From positions 1,488,001 through 1,552,000 of the forward strand of contig CP082962.1 in assembly GCA_021730285.1 (NCBI GenBank): a stretch of 64,000 nucleotides of DNA. The letters run 5' to 3'. Position 1 is the first letter of the stretch. Every line of letters starts with the position of its first letter. A model generated the notes under the pieces. That model made no database searches and was not told the DNA's origin. It was given only the letters and a program-made list of their open reading frames with translations. The stretch is from Desulfovibrio sp. JY (GTDB lineage: Bacteria > Desulfobacterota > Desulfovibrionia > Desulfovibrionales > Desulfovibrionaceae). Positions 53,226-64,000 of the stretch are shown here, in pieces. Both the position numbers and the translations under genes were made by a program.

Positions 53226-53912
53226 TCAGCGCCGGAGGCGGCGCATGTTTTTTTGCGACAGGATGTGCCTGACGACGAAATCCTTTCCATTGGGGATGTA
53301 GTCCGTCACCCACTGCATCGCGCCCCGCACGTCGCCGGCCATGACCATCCGCGTCATCGCGCGGTGATTGGCGATTTCGTTTTGCGTGTCGTCCCGGTCA
53401 TTTTCGATGCAGGCGATAATGACCTGCAAGGTCCGCATCAGGCTCTCTTCCAGTTCGGCCAGCTTCAAACTGCCCGTAAGCCCGACCAGCGCCTTGTGAT
53501 AATTGATATGGGCATTGGCTATGGCGACCGGATCATCCAGGTCGGCCTGGGCTTCGTAGACGACCGTGCTCTCTTCCAGGGCGCGCAACAGGCGCTGCGG
53601 CGTCGTGGGAATGCATTCGCAGGCCTTGAGCTCCAGAATCTGACGCGTCAGGAAGATATCGTCTATTTCCTCGAGTGTCAGCTTGCGCACGGACGCCCCC
53701 TTGTTCGGCAGGTGCGCCACAAGCTCCTCGGTCGCCAGGATGCGCAGGGCCTCCCGCACCGAACTGCGGGAAACGCCGAGCGAATGCGACAACGTCATCT
53801 CCTTGAGCTGGTCGCCGGGCAGAAAGGTCCCGTCGAAAATGGCGCGCCGCAAGGTCTCCGCAATCATGGCCACGCTGCTGGACTTCGCCCCTTCGGTCTC
53901 GCGGATCGTCAT
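53226..53912 (-). CDS. GntR-family regulator, FCD type
   Basis: A 228-residue regulator: winged helix (about 15-75) with FLPGDQLKEMTLSHSLGVSR and SSVREALRIL, then an FCD ligand domain (about 85-215). Such proteins sense small acids such as amino-acid or sugar metabolites through a metal site in FCD. It is the last gene of a six-gene minus-strand operon and probably represses it. The matching operator candidate is the TGTCNGACA pair at 58721. ATG at 53912 is preferred over TTG one codon earlier. Confidence 0.92.
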   Translation of the reverse strand: MTIRETEGAKSSSVAMIAETLRRAIFDGTFLPGDQLKEMTLSHSLGVSRSSVREALRILATEELVAHLPNKGASVRKLTLEEIDDIFLTRQILELKACECIPTTPQRLLRALEESTVVYEAQADLDDPVAIANAHINYHKALVGLTGSLKLAELEESLMRTLQVIIACIENDRDDTQNEIANHRAMTRMVMAGDVRGAMQWVTDYIPNGKDFVVRHILSQKNMRRLRR

Positions 53913-53927
53913 CAATATCCCTGAAGG

Positions 53928-55181
53928 TTATTTTCCCGCTTTCCAAACGACGCGGCCCCGGGAAAGGGACACGTCCACAAGTGGGGCGCCGATGGCCGTA
54001 GCCAGCTGGCCCGGATGCTCGCAATCGAAAATGGTCACATCGCCGCGCTTGCCCACATCCAGGGAACCCCGGTCATGGCTTTTCCCCAGGGCGTAGGCGG
54101 CGTTGAGGGTCGCGCCGACAATGGCCTCGGCCGGGGTGAGCCTGAACCACGAACAGGCCAGCGCCATGGTCAACGGCAACGACGTGGCCTGGAACGACGA
54201 ACAATAGTCCGTGGCGATGGCGACAGGCACGTTGTTCTTGATAAAAAGCCTTGCGTTGGCTTTTTGCGCGTCCAGATAAAACTGTTCCGCCACCGGCAAA
54301 AGCACGGCGACGGTCGCGGTGGCCCCCACGGCATTGATTTCGGCATCCGGCGTATAGGTGAGATGGTCGGCGGAAAGCGCCCCCCCCTCGACCGCCGTAC
54401 GCCATCCCCGCGAATCGGAGGACGCATCCGCATGGACGCGGACAGGTAATCCCAAAGAAGCCGAAACAGCAATCAGTTCTCTTGCCTGCTCGGCTGAGAA
54501 GTCGCCATTTTCACACGAAAGGTCCTGCGACTGGGCAATGCCTTGGGCAAGCACCGCCGGCAGCATCTCGTTTTTGACCACAGCGACGTACTCTTCCGCG
54601 CTCCGTCCGTCCTGGGGCGCGATATGCGCGCCGAGAAACGTGCAGACGATATCCATGGGCGTGTGCGCGGCGGCTTGGCGCAGCAGGCGCAGCAGGCGCA
54701 GTTCCCCCTGCGTATCCAGGCCGTAGCCGGACTTGACCTCGAGGGTGGTCACGCCCCCCGCCGCGATCCGCTCAAAGGCCCGGGCGACGTTGCGCAAAAG
54801 CTCGTCGTCGCCGGCCTGGCGTGTCTTTACGATGGTGGACCAGATGCCGCCGCCTTCGGCGCGAATCGCCCGGCCGTCGGCGCCTTCGAGTCGGCGCACG
54901 TATTCCCAGTGCCGGTCGCCCGCGAAAATGGGGTGCGAATGGCATTCCACAAGTCCGGGCAGCACCGTTTTTCCGGAGGCGTCCAGCACCGGGGCGTCGT
55001 CCCCGTAGGCCCGAAGCACCTCTCGCGAATCGCCCACGGCCACGATGACGCCGCCGCGAATGGCCAGCGCGCCGTCGGCAACGATGTCGAGCTCCCCCTG
55101 GGCCCGGCCCGTCCTGGGGCGTTTCGAATCCGTAACCCGCACGAGGCTGGCCGCGTGCGCAATGGTGATATCGCCGTTCAC
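53928..55181 (-). CDS. Imidazolonepropionase-like amidohydrolase (HutI family)
   Basis: A 417-residue zinc/iron amidohydrolase. The HutI signatures are present: GLVECHSHPIFAGDRHWEYV near residue 80, EGGGIWSTI, TTLEVKSGYGLD, FLGAHIAP, VHADAS, SADHLTYT and ATDYCSSF. HutI opens 4-imidazolone-5-propionate to formiminoglutamate in histidine breakdown, but hutH, hutU and hutG are absent here, so the natural substrate may be a different imidazolone or hydantoin-like ring. The GTG start at 55181 follows AAAGAGG. It lies between aroM and the regulator in one operon. Confidence 0.85.
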   Translation of the reverse strand: MNGDITIAHAASLVRVTDSKRPRTGRAQGELDIVADGALAIRGGVIVAVGDSREVLRAYGDDAPVLDASGKTVLPGLVECHSHPIFAGDRHWEYVRRLEGADGRAIRAEGGGIWSTIVKTRQAGDDELLRNVARAFERIAAGGVTTLEVKSGYGLDTQGELRLLRLLRQAAAHTPMDIVCTFLGAHIAPQDGRSAEEYVAVVKNEMLPAVLAQGIAQSQDLSCENGDFSAEQARELIAVSASLGLPVRVHADASSDSRGWRTAVEGGALSADHLTYTPDAEINAVGATATVAVLLPVAEQFYLDAQKANARLFIKNNVPVAIATDYCSSFQATSLPLTMALACSWFRLTPAEAIVGATLNAAYALGKSHDRGSLDVGKRGDVTIFDCEHPGQLATAIGAPLVDVSLSRGRVVWKAGK

Positions 55182-55243
55182 TGCATCCTCTTTGCCGCAT
55201 AAAGCGGCGTCAGGCGCGGTCTCCTGCCGGGACACGCGCCGGC

Positions 55244-55918
55244 TCAGACGAGTTCCTGGAGAATGCGCGCCGTAATGCTTGTGGCGCTCAGGGTCGGCAG
55301 TCCGGACGTGTCGCGCACCGTCCGGCGCTGCAGCTCCGTAAACCCCATGTCGTCGAGCAAAACATAGTCCGCGCCGACCGTCTTCGCCCGAAACGCCGCC
55401 CGGACCAGGGCCTCCTGCCCGTCGTAGGGCGAAGCCGCCGCCGTGGAAATCCGGGCCGCATAGGATCGCCACTGCGTCGGCGCCGCCTCCATGTCGGATT
55501 CCGGTCCGATGACGCACAGATGCCCGTGGCCCGCCAGGGCGGCGACCACGGAGCGGATGACCGTTATCGGTTCGATGAGCCTGGGAATGGCGCGTTTGAG
55601 CATGGGAAACCGCCCCGAGCAAAGCAGCAGCAGGGCATCGCACTCCGCTTCCAGCTTCCGTCCGGCGGCGATAAGGCGGGGCAGCAGCAGACGCTTGGCG
55701 ACAAGCACGCCCCTGACGACGCCATCCTGCTTGCGCAGGCAGGTCTCGATGCCGGATTCTCCCTGCTCCGGGGCCAGCCGCGCCCAGTCGCCGGCACCCA
55801 GGCCGTCCAGGGCGCCCCGTTGCCTGAAGGCGATGCGATCCCCCAGGATGGCGCGAAACGTGGGTTCGATATCCGTGCGGGGCGCCTGGCCCAGCGTGAG
55901 TATGCCAAGAGTGACCAT
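55244..55918 (-). CDS. AroM-family protein
   Basis: A 224-residue cytoplasmic protein matching the AroM family: TLGILTLGQAPRTDIEPTFR, RQRGALDGL, LLLLCSGRFP with the conserved Cys, and SATSITARIL at the C-terminus. The family is related to Asp/Glu/hydantoin racemases but has no settled function. The two halves each carry a Cys/Thr-like position, as in two-base racemases. It lies between the transporter genes and the HutI-like gene. The start at ATG 55918 begins the conserved N-terminus. Confidence 0.85.
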   Translation of the reverse strand: MVTLGILTLGQAPRTDIEPTFRAILGDRIAFRQRGALDGLGAGDWARLAPEQGESGIETCLRKQDGVVRGVLVAKRLLLPRLIAAGRKLEAECDALLLLCSGRFPMLKRAIPRLIEPITVIRSVVAALAGHGHLCVIGPESDMEAAPTQWRSYAARISTAAASPYDGQEALVRAAFRAKTVGADYVLLDDMGFTELQRRTVRDTSGLPTLSATSITARILQELV

Positions 55919-55952
55919 ATGCTTCTTGTGTGGGAGGCCAGGACAAAGAGGA

Positions 55953-55978
55953 GCCACTCCCCGCGGGGGGAGTGGCTT
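55953..55978 (-). terminator. Hairpin between the binding-protein gene and the aroM-family gene
   Basis: An 11-bp perfect stem (55953-55963 with 55968-55978, loop of four) sits in the gap after the binding-protein stop. A hairpin here often makes a binding protein more abundant than the genes downstream, by partial termination or mRNA protection. Confidence 0.55.
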
Positions 55979-55999
55979 CTTTCCGCGATGGCCGAGGCC

Positions 56000-56851
56000 C
56001 TAGTTCACGGCTTCGCCATTGATGAGAGGCCGCTTCAGCGCGCCGGTCTCGGCGCCCCATTTCTTGAGAATCTTAAGGTAGGTGCCGTCGGCGAAAACCT
56101 TTTGCAGCGCGGCGTACACCGCATCGCGGAGCTTGGCGTTCTCCTTGCTGAAGGCGATGCCGTAGGGATTGGATTCCAGCAGCGGCCCCACGGCCACGAA
56201 AGCGCCCTTTTGCTGCACATTGGCCCAGCCCAGGGCCTCGGGGCTGAGGGCGGAAGCCTGGGCCCGGCCCTGGAGCATCTGCATGCGCGCGGAGGCCGCG
56301 GAATCCACCGCCATGATGTTGATGCCGGGCTTGCCCTTGTCGACCAGATTTTCCTTGCTCCACTTCTGCATGGTGGTCAGGTAGTCCGTGGAGGCGGAGA
56401 CGGCCAGGGTCTTGCCGCTCAGGTCTTCCAGGTTCTTGATTTTTCCGGCCAGGGCCTTGGTGGTGAAACACTGGGTGCCGGAGTTGAAGTAGTCGATGAA
56501 GTCCAGGGACTTGCGACGCTCCGCGCTGTCGGACATGCCGGAAAGGACCATGTCCACGCGCTTGGTGTTGATGGAGTTGATCAGCTGGTCGAAATTCTGG
56601 TCGTCAAATTGGACCTTGATGCCCAATTCCTTGGCAATGGCCTGGGCCAGTTCCACGTCGATGCCGTCCAGGGTGTCGGAGCCGGGGGCCTTGAATTCCA
56701 TGGGGGGGAATATGCCGTTGACGCCGATGATGATCTTGCCGCTTTTCTGGATGGCATCGGGCAACATGTCGTGCAGCGATGCGGCAAAGGCCGTTCCGGA
56801 AAACAGCAGGACACAACCACACAACAACGAGGCGAGCTTTCTTTTCAGCAA
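56000..56851 (-). CDS. Amino-acid-type ABC transporter substrate-binding protein
   Basis: A 283-residue periplasmic protein of solute-binding family 3. The signal peptide (KRKLASLLCGCVLLFSGTAFA) is followed by IIIGVNGIFPPMEF, DGIDVELAQAIAKELG, FDQLINSINTKRVDMVLSGM and a typical lysine/arginine/cystine-type hinge. The start is TTG at 56851, preceded by GGAGGAAAAG; no ATG fits. Ligand probably a polar amino acid or related ring compound, given the neighbours. Confidence 0.9.
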   Translation of the reverse strand: MLKRKLASLLCGCVLLFSGTAFAASLHDMLPDAIQKSGKIIIGVNGIFPPMEFKAPGSDTLDGIDVELAQAIAKELGIKVQFDDQNFDQLINSINTKRVDMVLSGMSDSAERRKSLDFIDYFNSGTQCFTTKALAGKIKNLEDLSGKTLAVSASTDYLTTMQKWSKENLVDKGKPGINIMAVDSAASARMQMLQGRAQASALSPEALGWANVQQKGAFVAVGPLLESNPYGIAFSKENAKLRDAVYAALQKVFADGTYLKILKKWGAETGALKRPLINGEAVN

Positions 56852-56999
56852 CGTCTTTTCCTCCAAATGATTCCTGCCGCGCCCCGCCTGCGACCTGCCG
56901 TGCGCCGGGCGGACGAGGCCCGGTATCGACCGTCTCCGCCGTTTGCGCCAGGTGGGCCGCAGACCACGGCAGCCTACGTGAAAAAAAAACCGCAACAGC

Positions 57000-57752
57000 C
57001 TAGGCTATGGTTCCAAGGAACGCCTTGGTGCGCTCGTGCCGGGGATTTTCAAAAACCTCCGACGGCGTTCCCTCTTCCACCACGGAGCCATGGTCCATAA
57101 GCGCCACCTTATGGGCCACGTTTTTGGCGAATTCCATTTCGTGGGTGACGATGACCATGGTCATGCCGCTCTCGGCCAGGTCGCGCATGACGGTCAGCAC
57201 CTCGCCCACAAGTTCGGGGTCGAGCGCGCTCGTCGGTTCGTCGAAGAGCATCAGGTCGGGTTCCATGGCCAACGACCGTGCAATGGCGACGCGCTGCTGC
57301 TGCCCGCCGGAAAGTTGTTTGGGAAAACGATCCGCCCAATCCCGCAGCCCGACCTGCTTCAAGAGCGCATAGGCGCGCTGCCGCATCTTCCGGGGATCTT
57401 CCTTTTTGACGGTGACGGGGCCTTCGATGATGTTTTCCAGAACGGTCATGTGCGGGAACAGGTTGAAATTCTGGAAGACCATGCCGATCCGGGTGCGTAT
57501 TTTGCAGAGCTCTTTTTCGCTCTGCTCGTACAACCGCCCTTTGCGTTCATCGAATCCGATCAACGATCCGTCGACATAGATCCGCCCGGCATTGATCGTT
57601 TCCAGATGATTGATGCAGCGCAGAAAGGTGCTTTTTCCGGAGCCCGAGGGGCCGAGCAGGCACAGCACCTCGCCCCTGTGCACCTCGAGGCTGATACCTT
57701 TGAGGATTTCGTGGTCGCCGTACGATTTGTGGACGTTGACCGTACGCAGCAT
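57000..57752 (-). CDS. Amino-acid-type ABC transporter ATPase
   Basis: A 250-residue ATPase of the GlnQ/HisP group: Walker [20 protein letters not shown] loop [17 protein letters not shown], signature [16 protein letters not shown], Walker [18 protein letters not shown] loop [11 protein letters not shown]. The ATG at 57752 has AGGA eight bases upstream. It lies between permease and binding protein. Confidence 0.95.
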
Positions 57753-57772
57753 GGGGACATCCTGTCGCATGG

Positions 57773-58651
57773 CTAGGCTCCGCACCGTTGTCTTTTGCCG
57801 AAGGTATTCTCCCGGAGGGTTCCCAGGAAGCTGCGTTGCGTGGCAAAAGCATGGCCGCGGGCGAAGCGCCGCTCAATGCCGACCTGCGCGACGCTGAGGA
57901 TGGTCACGACGATCAGGTACCAGCCGGTGGCGACGATAAGCAGCTCCATGACCTTGGCATTGACGAAATAGATGATCTGGGCCTTGTGCAACAGCTCGGT
58001 GTAGGCGATGGCGCTGGCCATGGAGGACGTTTTGAGCAGGCCGATGAATTCGTTGCCGATGGGCGGCACGATAACGCGCATGGCCTGGGGCAGGATGATG
58101 CGGCGCATGGCCGTAAGGCGCGACATGCCAAGGGCCGTGGCGGCGTCTATCTGCCCCTTGTCGACGGACAGGATGCCGCCGCGCACGATTTCCGTCAGAT
58201 AGGCGCCTTCGTTGAGGCCCAACCCGAGCAGGGCGGCCATGAAGGGCGTCATCACGTCCACCATGCGGTATTGGGCGAAACCCAGATTCACCACGGGAAA
58301 AATAAGCGCCAGATTGAACCAGATCAGCAGTTGCAGATAGACGGGGGCCCCCCGGAACAGCCAGATGTACAACCTTGAAAACATGTTGGAGACGGGATTT
58401 TGGGACAGGCGCATGATGGCGAATACCACCCCCAGCACCAGGCCCATGAGCATGGAGCAGGCCGTGATGAGGATGGTGCTGGCCAGTCCCTTGAGCAGCG
58501 CGGTCGAAAAAAAGAACTCGTCCACCACGGACCAGTCGATCTGGCCCACCCTGAAAGCATTCACGATAAGCCCCAGCAGGCCTATCAGGATAATGCCGGA
58601 AACCCACCGTCCGTAGTGGCGAAGCGGGATGATTCTGTCGTTGGTCGCCAT
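57773..58651 (-). CDS. Amino-acid-type ABC transporter permease
   Basis: A 292-residue inner-membrane permease of the HisM/GlnP group with about five or six helices. The ATPase-contact motif is [32 protein letters not shown], preceded by [17 protein letters not shown] and [11 protein letters not shown]. One permease only, so it probably works as a homodimer. It is the first gene of the operon, reading from 58651; TTG at 58663 is an alternative start. Confidence 0.93.
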
Positions 58652-58720
58652 TTCCTTTCCCAAGTCCCAAAGTCACGAAAATCGTTTGCCGCCTGGCCGC
58701 CGAGCGGAAACCGTAAAAAA

Positions 58721-59095: not shown

Positions 59096-59386
59096 TCGGG
59101 ACGTGCATGCGGCAGCAACCGCGTTTTTGTGCCTCGCCTCTTTCATCATTGCTGGTCTTAAGATATCAGTGCATTATCCGAAATGGCTGGGCAACAGTGA
59201 CGTATTCGCCCCGTATGCCTTAACTAACATACTCTCAACCGAGCCGTTTGGCCTTCGGAGGGTGTCCCCGTCTGCCGTCGTTTTCCGCCTTTGTCGTGAG
59301 ACACGGGCGCTCCACGGAATAGACAACCAGATTCCATATCAAGATACACATCCCGTGCGCCTGCCAAGGCCGCCAGGAGGGAGTTC

Positions 59387-60844
59387 GTGAACGCCAAAAC
59401 CGATCTTTGGGTCGATACCGACGTGTCCATCGGGTTGGAGCATTTTCCCGGTTTCTACCGGGACATCGACGACGCCCTGGCCCTGATCCTCCTTTTTAAC
59501 AGTCCCCTGGTCACCCTTCGCGGCGTAAGCTCCACCTTCGGCAACACCGACGCCAGGCACGCCTACGCCATCGCCGCCAAGCTGACGGAAAAATTCGGCC
59601 CCAAGGGCCTGCCCGTCCAACAAGGCGCGGCCGGGCCCATCAAAAAGGGCGCCCCCCTGCCGGCCTCCGACGCCACCTGGGCCATGGCCGACGCCCTGCG
59701 CCAGGGCCCCATGACCATCGTGAGCCTTGGCGCGGCCACCAACATCGCCGTGCTCATCGCCTCCCACCCGGAACTGGTCGACAACATCGCGGGCATCGTG
59801 GCCATGGCCGGCTCGCGCTGCATGCCGGGGGAGGAATTCCTTGTCGGCCCCCGGCAGCTGAAGCCCTTTTGCGCCATGAACTTCGAAGCCGACGTGGAGG
59901 CCTGGCGCATCATCCTCGAAAGCAACGTGCCGCTGACCTTCGCCCCCTTCGACCTGAGCCGTCAGGTCTGGATCACCGAAGAGGACGCGCGCGGCCTGGA
60001 AAATACCGGCGATACGGGGTCCTACCTCGCGCCCTACATGTACAAGTGGGCCAGGGAATGGACGACGCTGTACGGCAGTCCGGGATTCAACCCCTTCGAC
60101 GCCCTGGCCGCCGGCTATTTCCTGGCCCCGGAATTTTTCGGCGGCGAGGAGCTGCCCGTGGGCATCCTGGAGCCCGGCGAGCAGGGGAACCACCGCGACG
60201 TGCCCTGCCTGATCGTTTCGGACTCCATGGGCAACCACCGCCGGGCCACCTCCCTTCGCACCATCAATCAAGGGTTCAAGCCGTTTTTCCTGGAGGCGCT
60301 TAAGGGCGGGTTTTGCATGGCCACGTCGGTGATGGGCTTTTCCCATATCAACATCGTGGTCGACGACCTGGACAAGGCCACGGAATTCTACGGTCGCGCC
60401 CTGGGCTTCCAGATGGCCTACAACGACGCCGGAGCCATCGACTTTCCGAACTACACGTCCCCGGCCTTTGCCCGCGACGCCGGGTTTCTGGACGGCAAGG
60501 TGGACGTGGACGTGCGCTTCCTGCGCCATCCCCAGGCCGGTTTGTGCCTGGAGCTCATGTGCTACCACGTCCCCGGGGGCTCCCGGGACATCGTTTTTCA
60601 CAGGACCGACGACATGGGCGGCCCGCGCCATGTGGCCCTGGAAGTGGCTGACATCGCCGCGGTTTTCGCGCATGTCAAAAAACAGCCGGAGGTGCGGATG
60701 ATCAACCCGTCCCCGGATTACGGGCCGCCGGAAAACCTCGGCACATCGACAATTTCCTTTTTTTACTGGCTCGATCCGTATGGGGTGCAATGGGAGATGG
60801 AACAGGGGCGGCCACTGGGATTCGGCCGGGAAATAAGCGGCTAG
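59387..60844 (+). CDS. Nucleoside hydrolase fused to a VOC/glyoxalase-type domain
   Basis: A 485-residue cytoplasmic fusion protein. The N-terminal part (about 1-305) is an inosine/uridine-type nucleoside hydrolase: VDTDVSIGLEHF, YRDIDDALALILLFNSP (the Ca-binding Asp cluster), VSSTFGNTDARHAY, PMTIVSLGAATNIAVL, IVAMAGSR and GFNPFDALAAGYF. Between the first two Asp motifs it carries several extra residues compared with typical DTDPGxDDA. The C-terminal part (about 316-480) is a VOC domain: SHINIVVDDLDKATEFYGRAL, LELMCYHVPG, RHVALEVADIAAVFAHV and FYWLDPYGVQWEM. I know of no described enzyme with this arrangement. GTG at 59387 follows AGGAGGGAG. It is divergent from the transporter operon. Confidence 0.85.
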   Translation: MNAKTDLWVDTDVSIGLEHFPGFYRDIDDALALILLFNSPLVTLRGVSSTFGNTDARHAYAIAAKLTEKFGPKGLPVQQGAAGPIKKGAPLPASDATWAMADALRQGPMTIVSLGAATNIAVLIASHPELVDNIAGIVAMAGSRCMPGEEFLVGPRQLKPFCAMNFEADVEAWRIILESNVPLTFAPFDLSRQVWITEEDARGLENTGDTGSYLAPYMYKWAREWTTLYGSPGFNPFDALAAGYFLAPEFFGGEELPVGILEPGEQGNHRDVPCLIVSDSMGNHRRATSLRTINQGFKPFFLEALKGGFCMATSVMGFSHINIVVDDLDKATEFYGRALGFQMAYNDAGAIDFPNYTSPAFARDAGFLDGKVDVDVRFLRHPQAGLCLELMCYHVPGGSRDIVFHRTDDMGGPRHVALEVADIAAVFAHVKKQPEVRMINPSPDYGPPENLGTSTISFFYWLDPYGVQWEMEQGRPLGFGREISG

Positions 60845-60963: not shown

Positions 60964-63900
60964 ATGATCGGCCTACCTGGCTATTCCAGGTTCGAAACCA
61001 TTCACACCGGCCGCAAGCACCGGGTGGTGCGCGCCGTGGAAGACGCCACCGGCCGGCCGGTGGCGCTCAAGATGCCGGCCATGCTGCTGCCTTCGGGCAA
61101 GGCCCTGACCGTTCTGGAAAAGGAATACGAATATCTGGCCCGGCTGGACCTGCCGGACATCCCCCATGCCGAGCGTCTCATCCATACCGGGCGCTCCATC
61201 GTCCTGGTCATGGAATGCTTCGAATGCCCCACCCTGAAGCAGGCGGCCGAGGACCGCGCCCTGCGCTTGGCCGAACTGACGGACGTCTCGGAAAAGCTGG
61301 CCCGCATCCTGGTCCAGCTCCATGCCCGGGGCATCATCCACCGCGACATCACCCCGGCCAACATCCTCTACGACCGCGCCGCCGGGCGGGTGGTGCTCAT
61401 CGACTTCGGCTCGGCCATCGACATGCCCCAGCAGTCCTCGGCCGGGCTTCGGCCCGAGACCGTGGAGGGCACGGTGGCCTACATGTCCCCGGAGCAGACC
61501 GGGCGCATCAACCGTCCCGTGGATTTTCGCTCCGATTTCTACTCGTTCGGCGTCACGTTCTACGAGATGCTGGCCGGGCGGCGGCCGTTTGCGGGCGACG
61601 ACGCCGGGGCGCTGATCCACAGCCACCTGGCCGTGACCCCGCCCGCGCCGCACAGCCTCGATCCGGCCATTCCCCAGGCCCTGTCCGACATCGCCATGAA
61701 GTGCCTGGCCAAGGATGCCGGGGACCGCTACCAGAGCGCCGTGGGCCTTCACGCGGACCTGCACCGCTGCCGCGCGGACCTGGAGCGGCGCGGCGAGATC
61801 GCGCCCTTTCCCCTGGGCGAGGCCGATGCGCGCGACCGGTTCCAGTTTCCCGAGCGTATTGTCGGACGCAGCCGGGAGCTTACCGCGCTGCAGGACCTCT
61901 ACGAGCATGTCGGCCGGGGCCACAGCGGCGTGGTCATGGTCCGGGGCGTCTCCGGGGTGGGCAAGACCTCCCTGGTCCAGGAACTGAGCCGGGCCGTGGC
62001 CGCGAAAAAAGGCTACGTGGCCTACGGCAAGTACGACCAGTACAATAGGGCCGTGCCCTTTTCCGGGCTCATCCAGGCCTTGTCCCTGCTGCTCCGTCAG
62101 ATTTTAAGCGAAGGCGAGGCGCGCATCGCCTCGTGGAAGCGGCGCATCCTGGCCGCCCTCGGCCAAAACGGCCGGGTGCTGTGCGAGGTCATCCCGGACC
62201 TGGAGACGCTTATCGGCGAGCAGCCGCCGGTGCATGCCCTGGATCCGGTGGAGGCCCGCACTCGCCAGGGCACGCTCTTTCGGCGGTTCATGGAAGCCCT
62301 TGGCCGCTGCGACCATCCGCTGCTGCTTTTCCTCGACGACCTGCAATGGATCGACGCGGCCAGCCTGTCGCTTTTGGAACTCATGGGCAGCCTGCGCGGG
62401 GAGGGGGCCATCCTGTGCGTCGGGGCCTACCGCAGCAACGAGGTGGCCGAGACGCATCCCCTGGCCGTGACCCTGGCCGCCATGCGCAAACGGCAGGCCA
62501 CCATCGCCGAGGTCCTTGTCGGGCCGCTGACGGAAGCCAACCTGCGCGGCTACCTGGCCGAGATGTTCCACATGCAAACCGCCGAGGTCGCTTCCCTGGC
62601 CAGGGCCCTGCACGGCAAGACCGACGGCAATCCGCTCTTTTTCCGCACCCTTCTGGCCTCGCTCTACCAGGATGGCCATCTGCGCTTCGACGCGGAGGTC
62701 CGGCACTGGGTCTGGGACGCCCCGGCCATCGCGGCCATGCCCTATGCCGACAACGTGGTGGAGGCGCTGCGGGCGCGTCTGGCCACCTTGCCGGCCGGCT
62801 GCCTGGAGCTTTTGCCCCTTGGCGCGCTGATCGGCAATCCGTTCTCCCTGGATGCGCTGCGGAGCTTAAGCGGCCGCGTCCGCACCGAGCTGGCCCGCAA
62901 TCTGGCGCCGGCCCTGGCGCAAGGGCTCATCACCTCGCCGCGCCGGGACGTGGAGCTTTACATCCAGCACTCGGCCGACCGCCTGGAGGACGTCACCTTC
63001 ACCTTCTGCCACGACCGCATCCAGCAGGCCGCCTATGCCCTGCTGGCGGAGGAGCGCAAACCCGGCCTGCATCTGGCGGCGGGACGGCTGCTGTGGCAGT
63101 CGTTGCCGCCGGGAAAGGACGACAGCCGGCTTTTCGACGTGCTGGAGCACATGCACAAGGGCGCGGCCCTTCTGACCGACCCCGGGGAGCGCCTCCGGGT
63201 GGCGGAACTGGCCCTTGGGGCCGGACGCAAGGCCAAGACGTCCACGGCCTTCGCCGATGCGGCCGAAATGCTGGACTTCGCCCGCTCCCTGTTGCCCGAG
63301 TCGCCCTGGAACAGCGACTACGCCCTGTGGCGCGAAATTTCCCTGGCTTTGGCCCAGGCCCTGTACCTGGCCGGCCGCTACGACGAGGCCGAGGCGCGTT
63401 GCGCCGAGATCCGCGCCCATGCCGTCACCGACCGCGACCGGCTCCGGCTCTGTAACGTCCAGGCCAAGCAATACCATCATCAGGCCCGCTACGCGGAAGC
63501 CGTGGAGCTGGAATACCGGGCCCTGGTCCTGCTCGGCTTCGCCATCCCCCGCGAGGACGAAGCCCTGCTCGCCCTGTTCCAGGAGGAAAAGGCCCGCATC
63601 GAGTTCCTGATCGACCGCAGGGCCGGCGGCGATCCGGCCGCCCTCTACGACCAGCCCGAAGCCGCCGACCCCGACCATATCCTGGCCCAGGAGATGTTTT
63701 TCGACCTGTATGCCGACTCCTACCTCATCGGGCGAGGTCTGGTCTGCGCCGCGGTCTCGGCGGTCATGACCCGTCTGGCCATGGAAGAGGGCAAAAGCCC
63801 GATGGCCTCGGTGGCCTACATCCATTACGCCTCGACCCTGTGCGCCATGGGCCTTTGCGCCCACGACTACCGCACCGGCCATGCCCTCGGCAGCCTGGCC

Positions 63901-64000
63901 GCCCGGCTGGCCGAGCACTACGCCGTCCCGGCCCTGCAAAACTACACCTACCACGTCTTTTCCCTGGCCGTGAACCATTGGCTCAATCCCCTGGGCACAA
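60964..64000 (+). CDS. Large protein kinase-AAA ATPase signalling protein (3' end cut off)
   Basis: At least 1012 residues lie in the window. The N-terminal domain (about 1-280) is a Ser/Thr protein kinase with VALKMP, IIHRDITPANIL (Thr where Lys is usual), VVLIDFGSA, GTVAYMSPEQTG and DFRSDFYSFGVTFYEML. It is followed by an AAA/STAND-type ATPase with Walker A RGVSGVGKTSLV near residue 328 and Walker B LLLFLDDLQWIDAASL, then helical repeats. Proteins of this build usually continue into GAF and histidine-kinase domains; those would lie beyond the right edge. The ATG follows GGAGGAG. Confidence 0.88.
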   Translation, partial: MIGLPGYSRFETIHTGRKHRVVRAVEDATGRPVALKMPAMLLPSGKALTVLEKEYEYLARLDLPDIPHAERLIHTGRSIVLVMECFECPTLKQAAEDRALRLAELTDVSEKLARILVQLHARGIIHRDITPANILYDRAAGRVVLIDFGSAIDMPQQSSAGLRPETVEGTVAYMSPEQTGRINRPVDFRSDFYSFGVTFYEMLAGRRPFAGDDAGALIHSHLAVTPPAPHSLDPAIPQALSDIAMKCLAKDAGDRYQSAVGLHADLHRCRADLERRGEIAPFPLGEADARDRFQFPERIVGRSRELTALQDLYEHVGRGHSGVVMVRGVSGVGKTSLVQELSRAVAAKKGYVAYGKYDQYNRAVPFSGLIQALSLLLRQILSEGEARIASWKRRILAALGQNGRVLCEVIPDLETLIGEQPPVHALDPVEARTRQGTLFRRFMEALGRCDHPLLLFLDDLQWIDAASLSLLELMGSLRGEGAILCVGAYRSNEVAETHPLAVTLAAMRKRQATIAEVLVGPLTEANLRGYLAEMFHMQTAEVASLARALHGKTDGNPLFFRTLLASLYQDGHLRFDAEVRHWVWDAPAIAAMPYADNVVEALRARLATLPAGCLELLPLGALIGNPFSLDALRSLSGRVRTELARNLAPALAQGLITSPRRDVELYIQHSADRLEDVTFTFCHDRIQQAAYALLAEERKPGLHLAAGRLLWQSLPPGKDDSRLFDVLEHMHKGAALLTDPGERLRVAELALGAGRKAKTSTAFADAAEMLDFARSLLPESPWNSDYALWREISLALAQALYLAGRYDEAEARCAEIRAHAVTDRDRLRLCNVQAKQYHHQARYAEAVELEYRALVLLGFAIPREDEALLALFQEEKARIEFLIDRRAGGDPAALYDQPEAADPDHILAQEMFFDLYADSYLIGRGLVCAAVSAVMTRLAMEEGKSPMASVAYIHYASTLCAMGLCAHDYRTGHALGSLAARLAEHYAVPALQNYTYHVFSLAVNHWLNPLGT

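Follow-up and report, generated by a model that had tools for sequence, protein, structure and literature searches.

The 64,000-nucleotide stretch of Desulfovibrio sp. JY considered here (contig CP082962.1, positions 1,488,001 to 1,552,000 of the forward strand; hereafter the window) contains a gene in which a nucleoside hydrolase of the IUNH family runs on, within one reading frame, into a VOC domain with the glyoxalase fold. Its parts are laid out as follows:

59375..59380, + strand: AGGAGG, the likely ribosome-binding site, 6 nt ahead of the GTG start (direct reading)
59387..60844, + strand: the IUNH-VOC fusion gene, a single open frame of 485 residues from GTG to TAG
59387..60304, + strand: IUNH half, residues 1-306, with the N-ribohydrolase fold (PF01156; structure match 4kpn)
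60317..60319, + strand: codon of Met311, possibly a relic of an earlier VOC start codon, a conjecture drawn from a Met shared by the window, L002 and L030
60320..60841, + strand: VOC half, residues 312-485, with the glyoxalase fold (PF00903; structure match 1ss4_B)

The fusion gene and where it occurs

Both domains were recognised by Pfam above the curated cut-offs, IU_nuc_hydro (PF01156) over residues 27-260 (E 8.4e-36) and Glyoxalase (PF00903) over residues 318-470 (E 5.8e-9), and structure prediction, which an earlier note on this DNA had proposed for the insertion and the VOC metal site, recovered a nucleoside hydrolase fold and a VOC fold in AlphaFold2 models. The model of the whole protein, built on 16 aligned fusion proteins headed by that of the window, has a mean predicted local distance difference test score (pLDDT) of 84.0 and a predicted template modelling score of 0.70. 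No signal peptide is evident. The earlier note had read the same uninterrupted 485-residue frame and had named a sequencing frameshift joining two genes as what could undo it; the frame proved sound, since the congener G011 carries an intact orthologue of 485 residues at 89% identity with zero indels, and 13 further complete frames were found among the loci described below. Between the window and G011, dN/dS (Nei-Gojobori) is 0.23 over the IUNH part and 0.10 over the VOC part; together with the indel-free frame at 89% identity, these values argue that the frame is due neither to chance nor to a frameshift, and indicate that the fusion is genuine and under purifying selection. A sequencing or assembly artefact merging two genes, for which one might cite that both domains also exist apart and that the assemblies show a broken reading frame for the fusions at L036 and L052, is refuted here by that orthologue and those complete frames.

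Within its own lineage the gene is rare and patchy. Two of 14 genomes of the genus hold it intact, and in a third, G003, the VOC end survives as a fragment, with a kinase gene after it whose match is confined to the first 390 residues (L003 1261-3155). Across 348 genomes of the class, searched at E 1e-12, matches were confined to the window genome, G011 and G003, and in a sample of 395 genomes of the phylum (E 1e-7) the only full-length match was the window's own gene.

A domain-architecture search, likewise called for earlier, was run as a scan of genome contigs with the VOC half and returned 57 loci; because only two peptide patterns were used, all its counts are lower bounds. Sixteen of the 57 carry the same IUNH-VOC fusion, 13 of them as complete frames, the others being cut by a contig end (L033), broken near the start (L036) or broken in the VOC part (L052); their hosts are Desulfobacterales-type genomes, Psychromonas, Aliagarivorans, Alginatibacterium, Motilimonas and Vibrio. 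A second architecture of about 750 residues, with a DJ-1/PfpI domain between IUNH and VOC, was found at seven of the 57 loci (Pfam was applied to three of the seven proteins), in Psychromonas, Vibrio penaeicida, Desulfobulbus, Nitrospirae, Clostridia, Aminicenantes and Bacteroidales. At 34 of the 57 loci the VOC occurs without an IUNH: 33 of these VOCs fall in a stand-alone cluster, and at L074 (1910-3067) a VOC of the window's family is joined to a hexapeptide acetyltransferase-like domain in a single frame of 385 residues.

Among 296 sampled genomes of the Vibrionaceae, the family of the host of L038, 17 matched the fusion at E 1e-40, 16 of them over both halves (seven of which repeat scan loci: G730, G733, G734 and others with identical sequence) and the remaining one, G751, as an IUNH alone. 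Two Vibrionaceae genomes, G785 and G945, have a DJ-1 domain ahead of the fusion, in open frames of 738 and 743 residues. When plasmids were searched with the whole protein by tblastn, the 40 matches listed out of 167 were all to the IUNH, at less than 30% identity.

The other outcome that would have told against the earlier note, many described proteins with this architecture, did not materialise: we found no description of an IUNH-VOC architecture in the literature searched, which consisted of open-access papers, architecture databases lying outside it. Word searches in passages of two reviews of the nucleoside hydrolase family (PMC8910321, PMC10526354) brought up no IUNH-glyoxalase fusion; the former mentions one other multidomain protein of nucleoside-hydrolase type, Sde_0182, and the latter gave no match.

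Two putative metal sites

The hydrolase half carries two features of its active-site region that recur in the argument:

59423..59467, + strand: residues 13-27, between D12 and D28, the insertion-bearing stretch of the Asp cluster (from alignment and unfused relatives)
60095..60100, + strand: F237-D238, a Phe at the place of the leaving-group His of group I nucleoside hydrolases, followed by the last calcium Asp (from alignment and PMC8910321)

The AlphaFold2 model of the IUNH half superposes on plant NRh (4kpn) with a VIA-align Z of 33.7 and a root-mean-square deviation of 2.2 over 272 aligned residues, and the half also resembles E. coli RihA. Its Asp cluster is complete (D10, D12, D28 and D29), and the third calcium Asp lies about 230 residues downstream, as D238. 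In a motif alignment of 31 rows, which hold 25 distinct sequences of the window's type and include the unfused G751 protein, the last Asp and the calcium Asp set as a whole are kept in 23 of the 25 (L032 and L033 deviate); the set is also kept in all seven IUNHs of the second architecture, and L117, which stands outside the alignment, has the same motifs.

The family fingerprint of nucleoside hydrolases is DxDxxxDD (PMC8910321), in which the corresponding Asp residues are four positions apart; in the window protein D12 and D28 are 16 apart, so that 12 extra residues break the fingerprint's spacing. The insertion that had been noticed in the Asp cluster is real, but it is not specific to the fusion: seven additional residues sit at this position in the unfused hydrolases L015 and L019 (DTDPNMWVPRRD[VI]DD) and L013 (DTDPAIGIPGTDADD), and two in L020. 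The insertion characterises a wider IUNH subgroup and did not arise through the fusion.

The VOC part, modelled alone, reached a pLDDT of 91.8 and shows the paired beta-alpha-beta3 fold. Its best structure match is 1ss4_B (VIA-align Z 15.0, root-mean-square deviation 2.3, 145 aligned residues, 17% identity), an entry whose title names a glyoxalase-family protein and states no function; further matches include L-DOPA dioxygenase (Z 12.6) and E. coli GlxI (Z 11.4). Four presumed metal ligands, H320, E389, H415 and E470, placed by alignment, are invariant in all 40 aligned VOCs. The same set of four ligands, H, E, H and E, is that of E. coli glyoxalase I, and its presence makes an iron dioxygenase less likely here than an isomerase, an epimerase or a lyase. 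No more specific family could be attached to it: the methylmalonyl-CoA epimerase model TIGR03081 gave 28.3 bits against a curated cut-off of 114.95, and none of the glyoxalase I equivalog models reached its cut-off for the VOC half.

Companions in the gene row and two assemblies

Two further genes follow the fusion:

60964..64000 and on beyond the window end (L087 3965-9136), + strand: a Ser/Thr kinase - AAA_16 - GAF - GGDEF protein of 1723 residues with a GGEEF motif
G000:C1:1554362-1555033, outside the window: a DJ-1 protein of 223 residues, after the kinase-GGDEF gene

The unit extends past what the earlier note could take in: a GGDEF protein of the diguanylate cyclase type and a DJ-1 protein also belong to it. 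The order fusion, kinase-AAA_16-GAF-GGDEF, DJ-1 is the same at L030 and in G011, where the kinase-GGDEF orthologue adjoining the fusion is 86% identical; at L032 and L034 the kinase-GGDEF gene comes before the fusion instead and a DJ-1/PfpI domain is fused ahead of the IUNH. Eleven Vibrio-type loci show a HAMP-like/GGDEF gene, then a CxxCH protein with a signal-like N-terminus, then the fusion. In all, a GGDEF gene adjoins 16 of 18 window-type fusions (the window, G011 and 14 of the 16 scan loci); of the two exceptions, L033 lies on a contig that starts inside the fusion and L052 shows no such gene. The same query found no GGDEF match in the flanks of the other 41 scan loci, which are not a matched control, their hosts being different, several of their flanks short and the query a single one. 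A GGDEF gene is likewise adjacent in all eight of the further Vibrionaceae loci chosen from the 17 matching genomes, and of the seven that could be compared none repeats a scan gene. Within the genus, both the DJ-1 gene and a close full-length kinase gene (86-87%) occur only in the two of 14 genomes that hold an intact fusion.

The 223-residue DJ-1 neighbour matches 4p5p (8e-39) and glyoxalase III 4lru (E 1.5e-25), which places it with the Hsp31/glyoxalase III type. Proteins of this type use a Glu-Cys-His catalytic triad; the Glu and the Cys-His pair are kept in all four sequences aligned.

Two identifications were tried for members of the row and given up. A suspected likeness of the CxxCH protein to cytochrome P460 found no support in Pfam or in a profile search of PDB sequences. 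A role in anti-phage defence was dropped because neither the fusion nor the DJ-1 protein matched any PADLOC family (0 for each); of the 33 PADLOC matches of the kinase protein, the best 25 fall in its kinase/ATPase part.

How the two architectures are related was addressed with trees. In a tree of 40 VOC domains, which took in 12 of the 18 window-type fusions, all seven of the second type and 21 of 35 stand-alone VOCs (the alignment of whole fusions took 16 of the 18, L036 and L052 being omitted as frame-broken), the 19 fused domains and L031 separate from the 20 other stand-alone ones with support of 100/99. In a tree of 42 IUNH domains, in which six comparison rows are long branches, the two fused groups do not make one clade, and a joint clade was rejected (approximately unbiased test, p 8e-7). 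BLAST gave no significant similarity between the DJ-1 domains of one group and those of the other, those of the window's type being Hsp31/glyoxalase-III-like and those of the second architecture isonitrile-hydratase-like. By these comparisons, a single VOC clade has combined with IUNHs from two stocks and with DJ-1 domains from two stocks, and because it has met both kinds of partner twice, the three activities probably belong together; the repeated joining is the strongest evidence that they do. Alternatively, the two assemblies may reflect domain swapping inside one older fusion.

The VOC family meets enzymes of the N-glycosidic bond four times, two IUNH lineages being fused to it and two types of nucleoside phosphorylase lying adjacent. 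One of the latter is an MTA/SAH-nucleosidase-like PNP_UDP_1 protein that follows the fusion at L033 and has a 64% homologue after the fusion at L034; another phosphorylase directly precedes a stand-alone VOC at L027 and L077. At L033 the phosphorylase accompanies a damaged IUNH calcium site, and at L034 IUNH and phosphorylase are both intact; L032, also with a damaged IUNH, has no phosphorylase in its flank and a 38% homologue elsewhere in its genome. Phosphorylase-superfamily and IMPDH/GMP-reductase genes adjoin L034. In the second architecture, acid phosphatase and RNase T2 genes adjoin L054, and L045, L048 and L050 have related HAD-type neighbours with signal-like N-termini, of which only that of L048 lies above the Pfam cut-off.

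A YhhQ-like membrane protein is encoded directly upstream of ten stand-alone VOCs. Seven of these ten proteins match PF02592 at E 0.01, and among three tested against a queuosine-precursor-transporter model two gave no match and one fell below the cut-off. The ten loci (L028, L055, L057, L063, L065, L068, L069, L072, L076 and L086, with L028 and L072 representing the same Arsenophonus gene pair) have the look of an accessory cassette, mostly with helix-turn-helix and small-protein genes.

Other surroundings are recorded here in their own right. L027 (5156-13806) and L077 (3116-11991) share genes for an AsnA-like enzyme, a methyltransferase, an LD-carboxypeptidase, a nucleoside phosphorylase, the VOC and GloA, as well as an extra leucyl-tRNA synthetase and an aminoacyl-tRNA-ligase-like gene, and look like a nucleoside-antibiotic cluster with a resistant leucyl-tRNA synthetase. 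A stand-alone VOC of Photorhabdus (L064 5522-7561) comes directly after tail-fibre and tail-fibre-assembly genes, like prophage cargo. Some 700 bases after the IUNH - DJ-1 - VOC gene of L042 (8216-11104) lies a gene for a Cache-HD domain protein; HD domains of this kind are often phosphodiesterases of cyclic di-GMP (c-di-GMP). A genome of the window's family also encodes an IUNH of the second type that stands alone and whose N-terminus is signal-like (L011 756-1862, - strand). In the window itself, positions 53226-58663 on the - strand hold a GntR-type regulator, the imidazolonepropionase HutI (350 bits, above the cut-off), an AroM-family protein and a polar amino-acid ABC transporter; none of the six genes of this row was matched at E 1e-20 in the 19 kb round the G011 fusion, upstream of which an RND pump gene (named by eye from the sequence) comes to its end, and a link of the row to the fusion was dropped.

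What the fusion may do

We tentatively favour, at somewhat less than an even chance, a reading in which an unusual riboside is opened and its reactive product converted at a second metal site, with the DJ-1 protein and the diguanylate cyclase in the same circuit. The fusion protein would be a cytosolic two-site enzyme within a small regulated unit. Its calcium-binding N-ribohydrolase half would take a riboside and break the N-glycosidic bond, acting on a leaving group that needs no protonation or on a substrate with a modified 5' end or base; a plain nucleoside is an improbable natural substrate, given the Phe in place of the usual leaving-group acid and the lack of a His in the loop opposite. 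The VOC half, of the divalent-metal glyoxalase-I/epimerase type, would isomerise or detoxify the reactive product freed next door. The conversion would be finished by the row's DJ-1 protein, which is of the glyoxalase III type and in some species part of the fusion, and the adjacent diguanylate cyclase would tie the compound's presence to c-di-GMP. A wider proposition, that IUNH, DJ-1/PfpI and the VOC clade make up a hitherto undescribed pathway module, assembled at least twice with IUNH and DJ-1 partners of different stock, which processes a damaged or modified riboside while a dedicated diguanylate cyclase reads out its arrival to c-di-GMP, seems to us possible and on balance unlikely.

The earlier suggestion that the fusion releases a base or ring and then transforms it keeps its general form: cleavage followed by transformation is plausible, given a true fusion, a full presumed VOC metal site and the repeated association of this VOC with enzymes of the N-glycosidic bond. 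Where it has to be narrowed is the substrate, since the usual leaving-group residues are missing from the IUNH half, which makes cleavage of ordinary purine or pyrimidine nucleosides doubtful.

A number of observations weigh against the two-site enzyme. Nucleoside hydrolases of groups I, II and III are defined by a His, Trp or Cys, respectively, just before the last calcium Asp (PMC8910321). The window protein has none of the three there, F237 standing in their place, and across the 25 distinct sequences of its type this residue is Phe in 24 and Val in L032; the claim that family motifs are kept in both halves holds for the VOC, with its four presumed ligands, and not for the IUNH, which falls short at this position. 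Nor does the beta3-alpha3 stretch of the window protein (residues 80-94) contain a His or a Trp, in the alignment or in the AlphaFold2 model. The position aligned to E166 of the C. fasciculata nucleoside hydrolase, a residue presumed to contact the ribose at its 5'-OH, is Ala or Asp in all 25; the second-type IUNHs keep the equivalent Glu, share the Phe before the last Asp and have an invariant His in the beta3-alpha3 region. At L032 (5354-7528) and L033 (2-1456) the calcium ligands of the IUNH are damaged and the VOC ligands whole, so the two halves can part ways, and the existence of two different nucleoside hydrolases with diverse neighbours makes a single common substrate unlikely. G012 holds a 34% kinase homologue without a fusion, and GGDEF-only matches are common in the genus (14 of 14 genomes). 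No DJ-1 gene was found in the flanks of the Vibrio-type loci (0 of 11 + 6), and of six Vibrio-type genomes three gave no DJ-1 homologue and three gave one at 34-40%. In G751 (L116 6488-9430) an unfused IUNH of the window's type lies behind CxxCH and GGDEF proteins with no VOC, and a genome-wide search found no VOC there, an empty answer that is weak proof taken alone. The flanks of the seven loci of the second architecture contain no GGDEF match.

The main rival, which we rank nearly as good and still think improbable, is that the IUNH half is an XopQ-like ligand-binding module, for ADP-ribose for example, which would act as a sensor or buffer feeding the diguanylate cyclase, the VOC being a second binding or catalytic part. 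XopQ/HopQ, as described in PMC8910321, keeps the calcium site and lacks the leaving-group residues, as the fusion does; it differs in being an effector injected by plant pathogens, whereas the window protein is fused to a VOC, lies beside a GGDEF gene and has no evident signal peptide. XopQ was absent from the best 50 PDB structure matches of the IUNH half and may be present further down. A sensor would suit the adjacency of GGDEF genes, found at 16 of 18 fusions and eight of eight further Vibrionaceae loci and unmatched at the other 41 scan loci, and the damaged calcium sites of L032 and L033; it is favoured as well by the G751 locus, where IUNH, CxxCH and GGDEF proteins persist together and no VOC was found. 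Against it stand the calcium Asp residues retained in 23 of 25 distinct sequences, the second architecture, which adjoins phosphatase and RNase T2 genes (L054) and shows no GGDEF match in its flanks, and the fact that two nucleoside hydrolases of S. solfataricus without the His in question are still enzymes (PMC8910321).

We regard as unlikely a simpler role in 2-oxoaldehyde detoxification, in which ordinary nucleosides would be cleaved and the VOC and DJ-1 proteins would remove dicarbonyls arising from ribose catabolism. Both folds are glyoxalase-like, DJ-1/PARK7 works as a glutathione-free glyoxalase (PMC10634309), and the row RNase T2 - acid phosphatase - fusion at L054 resembles RNA salvage; however, a housekeeping detoxification enzyme needs no hydrolase fused to it, the window hydrolase lacks the residues used on ordinary nucleosides, and no ribokinase appeared among the scanned neighbours of window-type fusions, which are a subset of all neighbours. 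Lower still we would place the salvage or repair of methylglyoxal-glycated purine nucleosides, with the hydrolase freeing the base, the VOC isomerising the adduct and DJ-1 removing it: the domain set fits, Hsp31-type DJ-1 proteins have been reported to repair glycated nucleic acids (PMC10431920), and the phosphorylase-superfamily and IMPDH/GMP-reductase genes beside L034 are in keeping with it, but the deglycase function of DJ-1 is disputed (PMC10634309). Salvage of queuosine or 7-deazaguanine, with a QueK-like IUNH and a VOC acting on the freed deazapurine, is very improbable. QueK is the nucleoside hydrolase of queuosine salvage (PMC11130926), and thus a member of the same family acting on a modified nucleoside, here set beside the fusion by description rather than by sequence; the YhhQ-like genes upstream of the ten stand-alone VOCs, seven of which match PF02592, also point that way. 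Yet those genes adjoin stand-alone VOCs and not the fused clade, none of the three transporters tested reached the queuosine-precursor-transporter cut-off, and the partner of QueK, QueL, is a radical enzyme (PMC11570991) and not a VOC protein.

Set against known systems, the fusion is made of familiar parts. With the group I N-ribohydrolases (RihA/RihB and plant NRh; PF01156) the fusion shares the fold (Z ~33) and the calcium Asp residues, unlike them having a 12-residue insertion in the Asp cluster, a Phe for the His, no His in beta3-alpha3 and a VOC at the C-terminus. With the glyoxalase I, methylmalonyl-CoA epimerase and FosX VOCs (PF00903) it shares the fold and the four presumed ligands, though at low identity (17% to the best fold match, 1ss4) and with the VOC here fused to an IUNH. 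The neighbouring 223-residue protein is similar to the Hsp31/glyoxalase III DJ-1s, its Cys-His pair kept, and differs in being linked by gene row, or by fusion, to an IUNH-VOC protein. The folds are thus known, and it is their combination, its repeated assembly and its signalling neighbourhood that appear undescribed in the literature searched.

The physiological role of nucleoside hydrolases has been called unclear in most organisms (PMC10526354). The repeated pairing of IUNH with VOC across several bacterial phyla is a pointer to a pathway for ribose-linked molecules that has yet to be described, and the gathering of varied hydrolase and DJ-1 lineages round one VOC clade names the partner enzymes of that pathway. 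The fusion, the DJ-1 protein and the diguanylate cyclase make a defined gene set for testing. DJ-1/glyoxalase-III proteins, whose function is debated (PMC10634309), would gain a definite partner in metabolism, and c-di-GMP signalling could turn out to have a small-molecule input, which, if the proposal is true, would link riboside chemistry to c-di-GMP.

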